Below the pieces are notes generated by a model, which searched no databases, was not told where the DNA came from, and saw only the letters and a list, made by a program, of their open reading frames with translations. The translations under genes and the position numbers were made by a program. Of a DNA stretch of 64,000 nucleotides, positions 56,073 to 63,536 are shown in pieces. The stretch is from Gemmatimonadota bacterium (GTDB lineage: Bacteria > Gemmatimonadota > Gemmatimonadetes > Gemmatimonadales > Gemmatimonadaceae): NCBI GenBank assembly GCA_947463135.1, contig CANHTA010000001.1, positions 108,332 through 172,331 of the forward strand, read 5' to 3'. The first letter of the stretch is position 1. Each line of letters begins with the position of its first letter.

Positions 56073-57401
56073 ATGCCTCTCGTGCCAAGCCCTCGCAAGA
56101 CGCGGCGTGCAATCGGCGCTGCCTGTGTACTCGCGGTGACCGCGCTGCCCATGCGACCCGTCTCACTGGCGGGGCAGGCTCGCACGCCGGTCGCCGTCAC
56201 CACCGTGGCGCCGGCCCCCGTGGCTCCGCAGCGTGACTACTGGGTGTACGTAGGCGCCGAATCGGCCGACAAGATCTACCGGGTGCGATTCGGATCCGGC
56301 GGGGCCGTCGTTGAAAAGACGATTGGCGTTGGAGAGCTGGCCGCCGAAATGGAGGGGCCGCACGGTCTCGCGATCTCGGCCGATGGCAAATATCTGCACA
56401 TGACCACGGGACATGGATTTCCCGATGGCAAGTATTGGCGCTACGCACTTGGCCCCGATACGCTGGTCGGTCCCGGACTCTTACTGGGAAATTTCCCCGC
56501 CTCCATTGATGTCACCCCTGACGGTCTGTACGCGCTGTCGGTGAACTTCAACTTGCACGGCGACATGATTCCCTCAACGGTGTCGGTGATTTACACGCCC
56601 ACCCATACGGAAATCGCCCGCATTGTCACCTGCACCATGCCGCACGGGAGTCGCGTCTCACCCAACGGGTTGCACCAGTACTCCACCTGTATGATGGATG
56701 ACCAGCTCGTGGAGCTGGACACCAAGGACTTCGTGGTGTCGCGACGCTTCTCGTTGGCTAAAGGCGCCGAGGGGCCAGTCGCTCTGGATGCGTCCACCAC
56801 GATGGCTGCCATGGACGGCATGGACCACGCCGCTGGTCATCACCCGCCGTCTACCGCTGGCACCGCCGGCGCTGCGCTATCGCCGCGTGCGGGCCCAACC
56901 ATCGATCCGGCGCAGGTTGGGCGTGTGGGCATGGGGATGCAGAAGCATGACATGGCGCCCGCCTCCTGTTCCCCCACATGGGCCCAGCCATCCGTTAACG
57001 GCGCGGCCATCTTCGTGGCCTGCAACAAAGCCGATGAGATTCTGGAAATCGACACCGCCACCTGGACGCTCACGCGCCGCCTGAAAACGGGACGTGGCGT
57101 TTACAACCTCGCGGTGACCGCAGATGGTCGGCTGTTGGTCGCCACGCTCAAGCAGGGGAACGCGATCGAAATCTTTGATCTCGCCACCGGCACCAGTCTC
57201 GCCCAGCTGCCAACATCTACACGGGTCGCCCACGGCGTCACCATCAGTGCCGATTCGCGCTACGCGTTTGTCAGCAGTGAGGGGCAGGGCGCGCAGCCGG
57301 GCAAGGTTGACGTCATCGATCTCATGGCGAGAGCGAAGGTGGCCACCGTAGACGTGGGCCCGCAGGCCAGCGGCATCGCCTTCTGGAAAATGTCACCGTG
57401 A
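56073..57401 (+). CDS. secreted YVTN-type beta-propeller with Met/His-rich insert
   Basis: ATG 56073 gives a signal peptide (RRAIGAACVLAVTALPMRPV, cleavage near SLAGQA). The 442 residues have propeller blades such as GPHGLAISADGKYLHMTTGH and VTPDGLYALSVNFN, and at the end YNLAVTADGRLLVATLKQGN and VTISADSRYAFVSSEGQGAQ. Between about residues 250 and 300 a loop rich in Met and His (MAAMDGMDHAAGHH, then MGMQKHDMAPASC) breaks the repeat and looks like a metal-binding, possibly copper, site. It is divergent from the LVIVD gene with 43 bases between, so their promoters must overlap each other's coding regions. Confidence 0.72.
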   Translation: MPLVPSPRKTRRAIGAACVLAVTALPMRPVSLAGQARTPVAVTTVAPAPVAPQRDYWVYVGAESADKIYRVRFGSGGAVVEKTIGVGELAAEMEGPHGLAISADGKYLHMTTGHGFPDGKYWRYALGPDTLVGPGLLLGNFPASIDVTPDGLYALSVNFNLHGDMIPSTVSVIYTPTHTEIARIVTCTMPHGSRVSPNGLHQYSTCMMDDQLVELDTKDFVVSRRFSLAKGAEGPVALDASTTMAAMDGMDHAAGHHPPSTAGTAGAALSPRAGPTIDPAQVGRVGMGMQKHDMAPASCSPTWAQPSVNGAAIFVACNKADEILEIDTATWTLTRRLKTGRGVYNLAVTADGRLLVATLKQGNAIEIFDLATGTSLAQLPTSTRVAHGVTISADSRYAFVSSEGQGAQPGKVDVIDLMARAKVATVDVGPQASGIAFWKMSP

Positions 57402-57410
57402 TGGTCCGTC

Positions 57411-58187
57411 GTGGCTGATACCCCGCGACCGCTGTCCGAGGTGCGTGACATGATCGACGCGCTCGATCGTGACCTGTTGCGGCTCATGGCGAAGCGTATC
57501 GCGCTGGTGTCTGAAGTGGCCGCCGTGAAGCACCAGCACGGACTCGGCATTCGTGACGGAGCGCGTGAGCGCGACCTGTTGCGCGACCGACTCGCCTATG
57601 CGAACACCCTTGGTCTGCCCAGCGCGGAGATTGAGTCCATCTTCCGCGTCCTGATGCAATACAGCCGCGATCATCAGGCGGCGCTGCGCCACGATGTGCC
57701 GGTTGGGGTGGTCGAACAGATCTGGCTCAAGCGGGCCAGGCGTGCCCCAATGGATCCCGTGACCACCGCGCGCGTGCGCGCGCAGCGCGGCCTCGTGGGG
57801 AATGCGAATCAAGGTGGACGACGGCAGATCACGCTGCTGGAGGCGGAGCGGTGGGCCGAGCATCTCGTGGCGGTTGGCCGCGACGGTGATCCCACGCTGA
57901 GCCCGGCGCGGCGGCGTGCCAATGTGCTCGTGCGCGGAGTGTCCCTCGTGAATTCCCGCGGGCGGGTGCTCTGTATCGGTGCCGTGCGCATTCAGATTGC
58001 GGGAGAAACGAAGCCCTGCCATCAAATGGACGAGGTGTGCCCGGGGCTGCAGGCCGTGATGCGGCCGGCGTGGGGGGGAGGTGCCTTCGGCATCATTCTC
58101 GACGATGGTGACATCGCTGTCGGGGATCCCATCCGCTGGGATGACTCGTCAGATGCACCGTCGCTCTTTGACCACGTCCCCGCATGA
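57411..58187 (+). CDS. chorismate mutase-MOSC domain fusion
   Basis: The 258-residue protein starts at GTG 57411. Residues 8-90 are an AroQ chorismate mutase, with R12, R29, K40, D49, R52, E53, S85 and Q89 each one position after the E. coli active-site residues (R11, R28, K39, D48, R51, E52, S84, Q88), so activity is likely. Residues from about 115 are a MOSC domain: GNANQGGRRQITLLEAERW, RRANVLVRGVSL, GAVRIQIAGETKPCHQMDE with the conserved cysteine, and GGAFGIILDDGDIAVGDPI. MOSC domains bind molybdopterin-type cofactors or sulfur species. Joining the two is unusual. It follows the propeller gene by 9 bases. Confidence 0.8.
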   Translation: MADTPRPLSEVRDMIDALDRDLLRLMAKRIALVSEVAAVKHQHGLGIRDGARERDLLRDRLAYANTLGLPSAEIESIFRVLMQYSRDHQAALRHDVPVGVVEQIWLKRARRAPMDPVTTARVRAQRGLVGNANQGGRRQITLLEAERWAEHLVAVGRDGDPTLSPARRRANVLVRGVSLVNSRGRVLCIGAVRIQIAGETKPCHQMDEVCPGLQAVMRPAWGGGAFGIILDDGDIAVGDPIRWDDSSDAPSLFDHVPA

Positions 58188-58878: not shown

Positions 58879-61527
58879 CTATGGCCGAACGCCCTGCCGG
58901 ATTCGGACCGTGCGCTCCAGCTCGTCTCGGCTCTGCAAAATCTTTTGCCGCAAATCCACCGCAAGGTTGCGGTGCCGCGCGAGCCAGTCATCCAACAGCG
59001 CCAGCGATGCGGCGTCCCCTTGACCGCCAATCGTGGCCCCGAGCCAGCTCCCCAAAAAGAAGATCCGCCGGTTTTGCTGAATCCATGGCAACGTGTCCAG
59101 CGCCGGGACCAGATACCGCCGCGTCAGCTCGGCTTGGTCCCCGTCGTGGAAGCTGCGTAAGCTCGACGTGACCCACTCCTCATTCAGCGCGGCATCAGTG
59201 AACCAGCGTGAAAAGAGCGCCGCCTTGTGTGCCGAATCCGGGCGCGCGGCGTCAGCCACAAACGCCTGACGCTGCCCCTCACTGGTGGAATCGCGTCGTG
59301 ATTCCGCCGCCAACCGCGAGGACGCCGTGGGGGCCGACCGCGCGACCAACCGCGTGACAATCGACCACCGCGTGGGCGCGCGCAGCGCCAGCCCCGCCAC
59401 ACTGTCGGCGTCCAGCCATCCGTCCAGTCGTTGCAGCGATGCGGGAGAGCGCGCCAACCCGATCACCGCATCAAGCTGCGCCTTGCGTTGTCCGTAGCTC
59501 CGTCCGCTGTCCGCCGCTCCGCGCAACAACAGCGGCTCCGCGCGGGCGGCCAGCTCTGCTCGGGCTGCAACGTCCGTGTAGCGCCCAATCACGGTGGTCA
59601 GGCGGCCCACCAGCGTTCCCGTGATCTGTTCGTCTCGCTCCGCAGGAAGCTCCCGTAACACCATGTCGGCATACCGCATGGGCGAGAGGCGTGCCTCTCG
59701 CACCAGATCCCAGAGCGCGCCCCATACCATGGCCCGCAAGAAGTCGTCGCGGACACTGCCGATATGCTGCTCCAGCCACGTCACGCTGGCTGTGTCGGGG
59801 AGTACAAGGGCATAGCCGTGGTCACCGTCGTTGGCGAACACAAAATCGGGCACGGGCCGGTCGGTCGCCGCTGTTACCACCGTGGTGTCACCGCGAAGTT
59901 CTACCGGGAGGCGCACCGCCGGTTGGTTGGCGTAATACAACAGCACCTGCACTTTGAGCGGCCACGCCCCACGCCCCGAGAGCGCCGGCTGCGCCGCCCG
60001 CTGTACCAGCGCCAGCCGCTGCACACGGCCGTTGCGCACGGTGAGCCGCTGCTCCACCAACGGCATGCCAGGGCGTAGGATCCACGCCCGTCCCCACGCG
60101 GTCAGATCACGATTGGCGGCGCGTCCAACACTGCCAAGCAGTTCCCGCCACGTGCCGTTGCCGTACGCATGCGTGCGCAGGAAGTGCTGCACACCGCGCT
60201 GAAAGGCGGTCGCCCCAACCAGATACTCCAACTGCTTGAGCACCCCGGGGGCTTTGTTGTACACGATCGGGCCATAGTTGCTCTTGGCCTGGTCCAGATT
60301 CCCCAGCTGTTGCCAAATCGGTGTCGTGCCAGCTGTGGCATCGGTGGCGTACGCCACCGGCTTATTGCGCAAGTAGAACGTCTTCCACGCGTTTGATGCG
60401 GGCTCGAGGTCGGCCTGCATGCGCGCCGCCATGTAGGTCGCGAAGCCCTCCTTCAGCCACAAATCATCAAACCACCGCATGGTCAGGTAGTCGCCAAACC
60501 ATTGATGCGCGACCTCATGAAACGTGGTGGCTTGGCGACCGAGCAGCTGCGACATGGTGGGCCGCTCCCGGAAAATGAAGCTCTCTTCGTTGTAGAACAC
60601 CGCGCCCGGATGCTCCATGCCGCCAAACGGAAACGCCGGTGCCAACAGCGCATCGTACTTGTCGAAGGCGTATGGAATGCCAAACCAATCCCCCAGCCAC
60701 CGCAACGCCCGTGCGTTCATCGCAATCAGCGTGTCGCTCTCGGCCTCGGCCAGCCGCGACTGCCGCATCCATAGCGACACCGGGACCGGCGCTGCCTTCG
60801 TGCTCGTTGCCACCGTGCGCGTGACGCTTGCCCACGGACCGGCCGCAAACGCGATGAGATACGTGCTGATACGCTGTGTCGTCGCGAACCGATGCGTGAC
60901 CGTCGTGCTCGCGCTATCCGTGCGGAGGAGTGCGCCATTGGCCAGGGCGCGCCAGCCCATCGGAGTGGTGAGGGACAGCCGTACAGTGGCCTTGAGGTCG
61001 GGCTGGTCGAAGCACGGGAAGAGCAGATTGGCGTCTGACGGGACGAGGAGGGTATACAGGTACACGTTGCCGTCGGTCGCGTCGCGGTGGCGGATAATGC
61101 TCGCCCCGGCTTGAGCCACTGGGGTGGCAAACGCCACGTCGACCCGGTTTCGCCCCGGGCGAAGGCGTGCCGCCGGAACCACGAGGTGATGGCGATTCCA
61201 GGCGCTGGTGACCTCGGGCCACGCCTCCCCGTTGATCTGTCCTTCGCTCACCCGCAGTCCACGAAAGTCCAGCACCACGTCCCCGGCCGTCCGCGTGGTA
61301 AACGACACCGTGACGCGACCCGTTGCCGTGTCACCGGCACTCACCTGCAGTGCCATGTCGTAGGCCACGTCGGTCAGCTGAGCGGCACGTTGGCGGGCCA
61401 AGGTGGCCGACACCCCAGGCTCGGTGAGGGCCGACGGTTGTGCGCCAAGGGGGAGCAGCGCCGCGCAGGAGACTAGCGCGGCGGCGATGCCAGCGCGCGA
61501 ACGGTAAGCCAGATGAGGTCGGGACAT
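58879..61527 (-). CDS. secreted M1-family aminopeptidase
   Basis: The 882-residue protein has a signal peptide (AGIAAALVSCAALLPLGAQP), the M1 N-terminal domain (LFPCFDQPDLKATVRLSL), the exopeptidase motif in a variant form GGMEHPGAVFYNEE, the zinc site HEVAHQWFGDYLT with the third ligand in WLKEGFATY, and a long helical C-terminal region (ERAP1-like). It should cleave N-terminal residues from peptides in the periplasm or outside. The canonical GAMEN reads GGMEH. It is divergent from the Rieske gene with 114 bases between. Confidence 0.9.
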   Translation of the reverse strand: MSRPHLAYRSRAGIAAALVSCAALLPLGAQPSALTEPGVSATLARQRAAQLTDVAYDMALQVSAGDTATGRVTVSFTTRTAGDVVLDFRGLRVSEGQINGEAWPEVTSAWNRHHLVVPAARLRPGRNRVDVAFATPVAQAGASIIRHRDATDGNVYLYTLLVPSDANLLFPCFDQPDLKATVRLSLTTPMGWRALANGALLRTDSASTTVTHRFATTQRISTYLIAFAAGPWASVTRTVATSTKAAPVPVSLWMRQSRLAEAESDTLIAMNARALRWLGDWFGIPYAFDKYDALLAPAFPFGGMEHPGAVFYNEESFIFRERPTMSQLLGRQATTFHEVAHQWFGDYLTMRWFDDLWLKEGFATYMAARMQADLEPASNAWKTFYLRNKPVAYATDATAGTTPIWQQLGNLDQAKSNYGPIVYNKAPGVLKQLEYLVGATAFQRGVQHFLRTHAYGNGTWRELLGSVGRAANRDLTAWGRAWILRPGMPLVEQRLTVRNGRVQRLALVQRAAQPALSGRGAWPLKVQVLLYYANQPAVRLPVELRGDTTVVTAATDRPVPDFVFANDGDHGYALVLPDTASVTWLEQHIGSVRDDFLRAMVWGALWDLVREARLSPMRYADMVLRELPAERDEQITGTLVGRLTTVIGRYTDVAARAELAARAEPLLLRGAADSGRSYGQRKAQLDAVIGLARSPASLQRLDGWLDADSVAGLALRAPTRWSIVTRLVARSAPTASSRLAAESRRDSTSEGQRQAFVADAARPDSAHKAALFSRWFTDAALNEEWVTSSLRSFHDGDQAELTRRYLVPALDTLPWIQQNRRIFFLGSWLGATIGGQGDAASLALLDDWLARHRNLAVDLRQKILQSRDELERTVRIRQGVRP

Positions 61528-61641: not shown

Positions 61642-63135
61642 ATGTCACCAGCGCCGTGCTCCGATTCCTCGCCTGAGTCCGCACCCGATTCGTCACTCGA
61701 GTCCTCGTCGTGTGCACACTGCCCGCAGGTCGATCGCCAACTGGTCGACCGCCGTGGCTTCCTCACCTCGGCCTCGGTGCTCTCGCTTGGCGTGTTCATG
61801 GCCGGTTGCGGTGATGGCATTATCAGTGGTCCGGAATTGGTGCCCGACGCAATCCCTGAGCCCTTTCGCGTAGATCCCGCCACCATCCCCGCGTTGGCCA
61901 CGATTGGTGGGCGCACCGTTGTGGTGTCTGGCAGCGCGGCACCGGTGATGGTGGAACGCATCGGGGCGGCCCAGTTCCGGGCCCTTTCGCTGGTGTGCCC
62001 GCACCGCGGTACCATCGTCGACGTCACCGCTACTGGCCTCCGCTGCCCCAATCATGCGGCGCGCTTTGCGAACGACGGCACGTGGCTCGATGGACAACCC
62101 ACCGCCAATCTCGCCGCGCTGGATGTACGGCAGAACGCCGATGGCTCACTCACCGTGGGCGGCGCGATCACACCGCCGGTGCTTGGGCTCGACCGCAGCG
62201 CCGTGGTCTTTCTGGCCACGCGCACCGGTAATAGCCCGTCCGCGCAGACCGTGGCGATCGCGAATCTGGGTGGGGGCGTCCTGAGCGGTCTCTCCGTCTC
62301 GCTCACCTATGGTCCGGGCCAACGCACCGGTTGGCTCTCGCTGGCACTGAGTCAGGGGTCGGCCCCCGCCACGCTTACCCTCACCGCGCAGCTGGGTACT
62401 CTGCCGGTGGGCACGTATTCCGCCACCGTGACGGTGGCGGGCGCTGGAACCAGCAATGGCCCGCAGACGCTGGCCGTTTCGTTGCTGGTGCAGGACCCTG
62501 CGGCGCCCCCCGATTTGCAGCTCTCCACCGCCGCGCTCGCGTTTTCGGCACCAGTTGGCACCACGCCTCCCACGCAGGTGGTGCAGTGCAACAACAGCGG
62601 GGGCGGATCGCTGGTTGGGTTGGCGGCTACGGTGGCCTATGGCGCGGGCGCCACCGGTTGGCTCTCCACCACGTTCAACCAAACCACGGCGCCGGCGTCC
62701 CTCACCGTACGCGCCACGGCTGGGGCCTTGGCGGCCGGGACCTACACCGCCACGGTTACCGTGAGCGCGACTGGTGTGACCGCACGTACGTTCGCGGTGA
62801 CCCTGACCGTGACCGCCGCCGGCCTGGTGGTCACTATCGCCGCGTGGCCCGCACTGGCCAATCCCGGTGGGGTGGCCGGGAGTGTGGGTAACGTGAATGG
62901 CGGACCGGTGGCCGTCACCCGCCTCAGCGCCACCAGCTTTGCGGCGTTCTCGATGCGCTGTCCCCATGCCGGCACCACTATCAACGTGGTCAACGGTGCC
63001 AGCTTCCGCTGCCCGAATCACGGCGCCCTCTTCAACAGTGCCGGCGTATGGCAAGATTCCGCGCAGCGCGCGGACAACTTGACCCCGCTCACCGTGACCT
63101 ACACACCAGGCGCCACGACGCTCACGGTTCGCTGA
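61642..63135 (+). CDS. exported lipoprotein: Rieske, two BACON-like repeats, Rieske
   Basis: ATG 61642 starts 497 residues; the track's earlier start adds non-coding sequence. After an acidic N-terminus comes a Tat-like signal (DRRGFLTSASVLSLGVFMAG) ending in a lipobox cysteine. A Rieske 2Fe-2S domain follows with C119-P-H121 and C135-PN-H138, then two Ig-like repeats (about 175-280 and 285-390, containing TGWLSLALSQGSAP and TGWLSTTFNQTTAP) of the BACON type, then a second Rieske domain with C440/H442 and C457/H460. Both sites keep all four ligands. Export by Tat suits a cofactor protein folded before export. Partners are unknown; two clusters in one chain suggest electron relay. Confidence 0.75.
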   Translation: MSPAPCSDSSPESAPDSSLESSSCAHCPQVDRQLVDRRGFLTSASVLSLGVFMAGCGDGIISGPELVPDAIPEPFRVDPATIPALATIGGRTVVVSGSAAPVMVERIGAAQFRALSLVCPHRGTIVDVTATGLRCPNHAARFANDGTWLDGQPTANLAALDVRQNADGSLTVGGAITPPVLGLDRSAVVFLATRTGNSPSAQTVAIANLGGGVLSGLSVSLTYGPGQRTGWLSLALSQGSAPATLTLTAQLGTLPVGTYSATVTVAGAGTSNGPQTLAVSLLVQDPAAPPDLQLSTAALAFSAPVGTTPPTQVVQCNNSGGGSLVGLAATVAYGAGATGWLSTTFNQTTAPASLTVRATAGALAAGTYTATVTVSATGVTARTFAVTLTVTAAGLVVTIAAWPALANPGGVAGSVGNVNGGPVAVTRLSATSFAAFSMRCPHAGTTINVVNGASFRCPNHGALFNSAGVWQDSAQRADNLTPLTVTYTPGATTLTVR

Positions 63136-63209: not shown

Positions 63210-63536
63210 ATGCCAACTTACGAGTTCCGCTGCCCCGACGGCTCCATCATCGAAGCGCGGTTCAAGATCTCTGAGGTGCCGGAGAGTATCCCAACCCCCG
63301 ATGGCACGGGCGTCGCCACCCGTATCATTTCGGGCGGAGCCAGTCTGCTCTTCAAGGGCTCGGGTTTCTACATCACCGACTACGGAAAAGACGGCAAGAA
63401 GGATCAGCGCACGGGTGGTGCGTCGGCCGCTGAGGGCGGCTCCTCCTCCGACTCCAAGAGCGACAGCAGTTCAAGCGCAAAGCCCGCGGCCAGTGCGCCG
63501 TCTGCGTCATCCTCGTCCACGTCGTCTTCCGAGTGA
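63210..63536 (+). CDS. FmdB-family protein lacking most zinc-ribbon cysteines
   Basis: The 108-residue protein starts MPTYEFRCPDGSIIEARFKI and keeps the family ending KGSGFYITDYG, both diagnostic of the FmdB/zinc-ribbon family. In the family the first CxxC and a second CxxC bind zinc. Here only C8 remains, the first pair reads CPDG and the region of the second reads IPTPDGTG, so zinc binding is unlikely. A Ser-rich tail fills the last 35 residues. It is 4 bases before argS and shares the promoter above. FmdB proteins are small, poorly understood regulators. Confidence 0.75.
   Translation: MPTYEFRCPDGSIIEARFKISEVPESIPTPDGTGVATRIISGGASLLFKGSGFYITDYGKDGKKDQRTGGASAAEGGSSSDSKSDSSSSAKPAASAPSASSSSTSSSE

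Follow-up and report, generated by a model that had tools for sequence, protein, structure and literature searches.

In the 64,000-nucleotide stretch of Gemmatimonadota DNA analysed here (the window), we identified an intact open reading frame that encodes a predicted lipoprotein with a Rieske domain at either end and two Ig-like repeats between them. An alternative upstream ATG at 61513 opens a longer frame, and the downstream ATG at 61642 is preferred over it because the orthologs start near this position. The features of the locus are as follows, with the evidence for each:

61642..63135 (stop codon within), forward strand: gene for the 497-aa double-Rieske lipoprotein (intact ORF, Pfam matches, orthologs)
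61711..61722, forward strand: cysteine pair C24-x-x-C27 in the Tat n-region, 5' of the twin arginine (ortholog alignment)
61744..61809, forward strand: predicted Tat signal peptide VDRRGFLTSASVLSLGVFMAGC with putative lipobox cysteine C56 (all 21 sequences have R37, R38 and C56)
61840..62175, forward strand: Rieske domain A, about residues 67-178 (PF00355; weak match to the NCBIfam arsenite oxidase small subunit)
61996..62055, forward strand: cluster site A, formed by C119, H121, C135 and H138 (invariant in 21 of 21)
62176..62502, forward strand: Ig-like (BACON_2-like) repeat 1, residues 179-287 (identity to repeat 2, BACON_2 match in orthologs, all-beta model)
62503..62820, forward strand: Ig-like (BACON_2-like) repeat 2, residues 288-393 (BACON_2 match in orthologs, model, identity to repeat 1)
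62821..63132, forward strand: Rieske domain B, residues 394-497 (PF00355, best stretch 417-472; model)
62959..63021, forward strand: cluster site B, formed by C440, H442, C457 and H460 (invariant in 21 of 21)
63210..63536, forward strand: FmdB-like zinc-ribbon gene, a conserved downstream neighbour that is separate from the double-Rieske protein (PF09723 and synteny)

An earlier, sequence-only reading of this DNA had described two complete 2Fe-2S Rieske sites, and all eight ligands lie where it placed them (C119-x-H121...C135-x2-H138 and C440-x-H442...C457-x2-H460) and are identical in the 21 aligned sequences. The Tat lipoprotein signal that it predicted is upheld by the same alignment, in which R37/R38 and C56 are also identical throughout, and the domain search that it proposed recovered the Pfam Rieske profile PF00355 in two stretches, one towards each end of the protein (E = 4e-15 for the protein; 55.9 bits, cut-off 20.3). 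Over 93 residues, the two domains share 43% identity. The textbook Rieske protein has one cluster, and by this norm two Rieske modules in a single exported chain are an unusual design.

The whole-chain AlphaFold model (pLDDT 78.6, pTM 0.52) contains four largely beta domains, the relative placement of which is not fixed by it, and domain A combines C-x-H ... C-x2-H ligands with the Rieske fold in this model. In a Foldseek search with the whole chain, the Ig spacers drove the result: the matches were mainly multi-Ig proteins of the cadherin type and were uninformative on the Rieske part; domain B was therefore modelled separately (pLDDT 95.1, pTM 0.87). The Rieske fold again accompanies the C-x-H ... 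C-x2-H ligands in domain B modelled alone, and every one of its best 50 structural matches in the PDB is a Rieske protein or a Rieske oxygenase; PetC3 (5cxm) is among them, as are the ferredoxins of carbazole dioxygenase and 3-nitrotoluene dioxygenase. These matches have modest E-values (2.5e-4 at best) and probability 1.00.

Both clusters appear to have surroundings that differ from those of respiratory Rieske proteins. At the positions that we take, from motif spacing and the bovine sequence, to correspond to the disulfide-forming cysteine pair, Ser163 and Tyr165 of the bovine bc1 Rieske protein, domain A carries T/S124, N137, A140 and F142 and domain B carries T445, N459, A462 and F464, all of them invariant in the 21 sequences save T/S124. 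The second cysteine pair and the Ser and Tyr hydrogen bonds of high-potential bc1/b6f Rieske proteins are lacking in both domains in all 21 sequences. According to a review (PMC12445004), respiratory Rieske proteins of high potential are set apart by the disulfide and the Ser/Tyr hydrogen bonds; given the replacement of these features here, clusters A and B are predicted from sequence to have potentials below those of the bc1 type.

Full-length orthologs (53-78% identity) were found in 21 of the 29 other genomes of the genus, with a further, extended one in genome G010, and the genomes that bear them belong to Gemmatimonas / Gemmatimonadaceae in the GTDB-based collection. The double-Rieske gene is vertically inherited within Gemmatimonas. 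Of the seven genomes in which no full-length ortholog was matched, six are assemblies of 57-86% completeness, while the seventh, G015 (99% complete), retains a decayed remnant of domain B (L043:9642-9938) with one stop and with the last histidine ligand changed to glutamine. At least the species of G015 can do without the protein, since only this remnant persists in a near-complete genome. Estimates of dN/dS from six pairs, rough for the wider pairs where dS is near or above 1, are ~0.1 for either Rieske domain and range from about 0.03 to 0.20 across the Ig repeats. A chance origin of the two motifs is excluded because no ortholog lacks either of them, even at 51% identity, and dN/dS is ~0.1 in both Rieske domains, and the double-Rieske protein is, as judged from these substitution rates, under genus-wide purifying selection.

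The two Ig-like repeats that had been reported between the Rieske domains were recovered at residues 179-287 and 288-393; each is about 105-107 aa long, they are 46% identical to one another (E 1e-16), and both are beta in the model. The label "BACON-like" holds at the family level, in that BACON_2 (PF19190) matches six of the 21 ortholog sequences (best E = 3e-5), but not for the window protein itself, which has no BACON match above the Pfam threshold. BACON and BACON_2 proteins have Ig-like repeats of about 105 residues, as does the family described here, and there is a fair sequence-based case that the repeats belong near BACON_2.

The number of repeats varies among relatives. In G010, six Ig repeats separate the corresponding two Rieske domains of the ortholog, which lies at the same locus as the window gene, adjoining fmdB, and tandem double-Rieske proteins with no spacer are found in other Gemmatimonadota (L035, L036, L080, L081, L082, L096 and L101, and further in genomes G124, G130 and G142). 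In two other Gemmatimonadota genomes, G094 and G095, an Ig-array gene directly follows the tandem double-Rieske gene, and its repeats are 39-52% identical to the spacers. This occurrence of separate neighbours in one lineage and a fused chain in another suggests that the Rieske and Ig parts work together. Further long Ig-array genes, with repeats of this same family, occur at L040 and L052 (genomes G007 and G010), and no Rieske motif was found on the examined stretches around them.

On balance, we think it probable that the protein is a Tat-exported, lipid-anchored electron carrier of low potential, in which two Rieske 2Fe-2S domains are joined by an Ig-like tether and act independently. The chain would fold and receive both clusters in the cytoplasm, after which the folded protein would be exported by Tat and lipidated at C56. 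Each Rieske domain would then serve as its own one-electron carrier, and the Ig spacers could lengthen the reach of the protein, or offer its two modules to partners that are different or duplicated, with no fixed tunnelling distance. Two consecutive Ig domains in an extended chain would put the clusters far beyond direct tunnelling range. The earlier suggestion of two redox centres held apart is the best reading of the anatomy in its general sense, but not in the sense of a precisely set distance between the clusters, which is unlikely with a spacer number of 0, 2 or 6.

This variable repeat number also favours a tether over an intramolecular relay, in which folding back or dimerization would bring clusters A and B within tunnelling distance as a two-cluster wire or two-electron store. 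A relay would make use of the two conserved clusters per chain, and the spacer-less tandem relatives could have their clusters close together. The AlphaFold model has no confident packing between domains, however, and the Ig spacers are the least conserved part of the protein, with 12% invariant columns in each repeat as against 29% in domain A and 36% in domain B (21-sequence alignment). We consider such a relay improbable.

Downstream of the window gene come fmdB and argS, an order shared by most of the loci compared within the genus, and further along are a sugar kinase, purM and riboflavin genes; apart from fmdB, these names (argS included) are what we take the genes to be from their sequences. 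The upstream neighbours vary, and the FmdB-like neighbour matches PF09723 at E 1e-4, under the family cut-off. No redox partner, respiratory, signalling or oxygenase gene was found at the window locus, and the lack of an adjacent partner gene counts against the carrier model, as do the whole-chain pTM of 0.52 and the decayed gene of G015. Elsewhere in the window, an exported-looking beta-propeller protein (56073-57401) scores above cut-off against the YNCE and cytochrome D1 haem-domain profiles. A single ORF at 57411-58187 joins a chorismate mutase type II domain (11-89) to a MOSC domain (145-242), a pairing that is, to our knowledge, unusual.

Candidate membrane partners are found beside the relatives. 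Single-Rieske paralogs in the same genome as the window (G000:C3) adjoin two membrane proteins, and a candidate redox operon with two membrane and two Rieske proteins lies at L036:6756-11673, L035:929-6984 and L038:7405-9677; its version in G094/G095 also encodes the Ig-array protein. One membrane protein family has four invariant histidines among six sequences (H78, H114, H152 and H184), with a weak DUF4079 match in all six and a prokaryotic cytochrome b561 match in one (E 0.066, below cut-off), and a second family has two invariant histidines (H30 and H70) and weak DUF6644 and UPF0093 matches. These sequence features make the four- and two-histidine proteins a possible haem-b partner of the Rieske class, and the donor to the window protein would most likely be a membrane quinol/haem-b system like that possibly encoded beside its single- and tandem-Rieske relatives. 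In Bacteroidota, inspection of the single-Rieske loci by eye found no shared gene context.

A locus free of respiratory genes would also suit redox, oxygen or nitric-oxide sensing, or another non-respiratory role, with the Ig part binding cell-wall or sugar ligands, and extracellular binding proteins often carry Ig domains of the BACON type. We hold out little hope for such a role, as no signalling gene is linked and the relatives adjoin membrane proteins with conserved histidines.

Comparison with known systems helps to place the protein. The closest relatives are single-domain exported Rieske lipoproteins of Gemmatimonadota and Bacteroidota, which share the subfamily motif C-P/T-H...C-P-N-H and a Tat-like signal, mostly with a lipobox, and fall within the larger clade of the window domains in the domain tree. 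They have one cluster and no Ig spacer; one of them, a paralog in the same genome (G000:C3:13218-13706), is 38% identical to residues 16-184 of the window protein. Unlike the window gene, the Gemmatimonadota members adjoin a second Rieske gene and two membrane protein genes. The tandem double-Rieske proteins of Gemmatimonadota likewise carry two Rieske domains per exported chain, differing in their lack of an Ig spacer. In a tree of 117 Rieske domains, the A domains form one clade (100/98) and the B domains another (97/100); these are not sisters in the best tree, and domain B is nearest the single-domain proteins of its family (82/77, weak). A forced joint clade of A and B was not rejected (AU p = 0.204), so that neither internal duplication nor fusion of two Rieske lineages is preferred, and the tandem proteins, the domains of which are scattered across the tree, may have arisen more than once. 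In a Chloroflexi protein (L123:2022-3101), a DoxD/DoxX membrane domain is followed by a fused Rieske domain of the window type at the C-terminus.

Among characterized proteins, the best PDB match to a profile of domain B and its single-domain relatives was PetC3 of Synechocystis (3e-15), followed by many b6f, AioB and oxygenase Rieske proteins. PetC3 is a stand-alone exported Rieske protein of the plasma membrane and, in contrast to the two clusters and Ig domains of the window protein, it has one cluster and no Ig domains. The arsenite oxidase small subunit AioB is a Tat-exported Rieske protein, and its profile TIGR02694 matches two stretches of the window protein weakly, at 30.8 bits against a cut-off of 95.65, which does not place the protein in that family. 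AioB needs the molybdopterin subunit AioA, whereas no AioA gene was recognised at the window locus.

The Rieske ferredoxins of ring-hydroxylating dioxygenases (CarAc, 1vck) resemble the window domains in sequence and fold and, like them, lack the disulfide and have ferredoxin-like cluster surroundings. These ferredoxins are cytoplasmic, single-domain and dedicated to their oxygenases. A Rieske-type ferredoxin supplying a periplasmic oxygenase or reductase would accord with the ferredoxin-like second sphere of both domains and with the two dioxygenase ferredoxins among the structural matches of domain B, but the window protein is predicted to be exported, Rieske oxygenase systems are cytoplasmic, and no oxygenase is linked; we therefore rate this role as quite doubtful. 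That the protein serves a cytochrome bc or b6f complex as its Rieske subunit, as might be implied by b6f-type Rieske proteins giving the best PDB matches to the profile of domain B and its relatives, is very improbable, since it lacks both the disulfide cysteines and the Ser/Tyr hydrogen-bond donors, has a lipoprotein signal in place of an uncleaved membrane anchor, has two Rieske domains, and occurs in a genome with other Rieske genes.

We also identified a cysteine pair in the Tat n-region, of which C24 is present in 19 and C27 in 20 of the 21 ortholog sequences. No alternative start codon lies between the pair and the twin arginine in 19 of 21 orthologs, and so the pair is very likely translated. 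Counted as C-x2-5-C within 28 residues before the twin arginine, such a pair occurs in 94 of 97 relatives in the Gemmatimonadota Rieske class (L034-L042 and L071-L112 included), many of which are close relatives and hence not independent, in a pattern that had been spotted before counting. By class, sorted by motif post hoc, it occurs in 21 of 21 double-Rieske proteins with Ig repeats, 7 of 7 tandem proteins, 35 of 37 single-domain proteins and 31 of 32 proteins of a second Rieske type, as against none of 15 relatives from other phyla. Of 28 further proteins with Tat signals, drawn from six genomes in the genus, none has C-x2-4-C in the 25 residues before the twin arginine, a slightly narrower window and spacing than in the Rieske count. 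We found no earlier description of this Tat n-region cysteine pair in the open-access papers searched.

We hypothesize, tentatively and with more doubt than conviction, that in Gemmatimonadota the exported Rieske proteins, with the double-Rieske tether among their branches, make up an electron-transfer system of their own, the members of which are marked by the n-region cysteine pair; this pair would bind metal or the nascent cluster and restrict export to loaded protein. If the Tat signal were left uncleaved, the pair would instead remain as a cytoplasmic thiol site.

A phrase search of a collection of open-access papers, a weak test, returned no chain with two Rieske domains, and a phrase search there for a Rieske and BACON combination also found none; outside Gemmatimonadota, the occurrence of double-Rieske proteins was judged only by a contig scan with motifs of the window's Rieske subfamily. 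The cysteine pair of the Rieske class, being absent from the other Tat substrates checked in the genus, provides a testable handle on the control of cofactor loading in Tat export. More generally, a two-cluster lipoprotein that is strongly conserved across a genus, and the Ig tether of which is variable, lends itself to asking how electrons are carried over distance in the periplasm.
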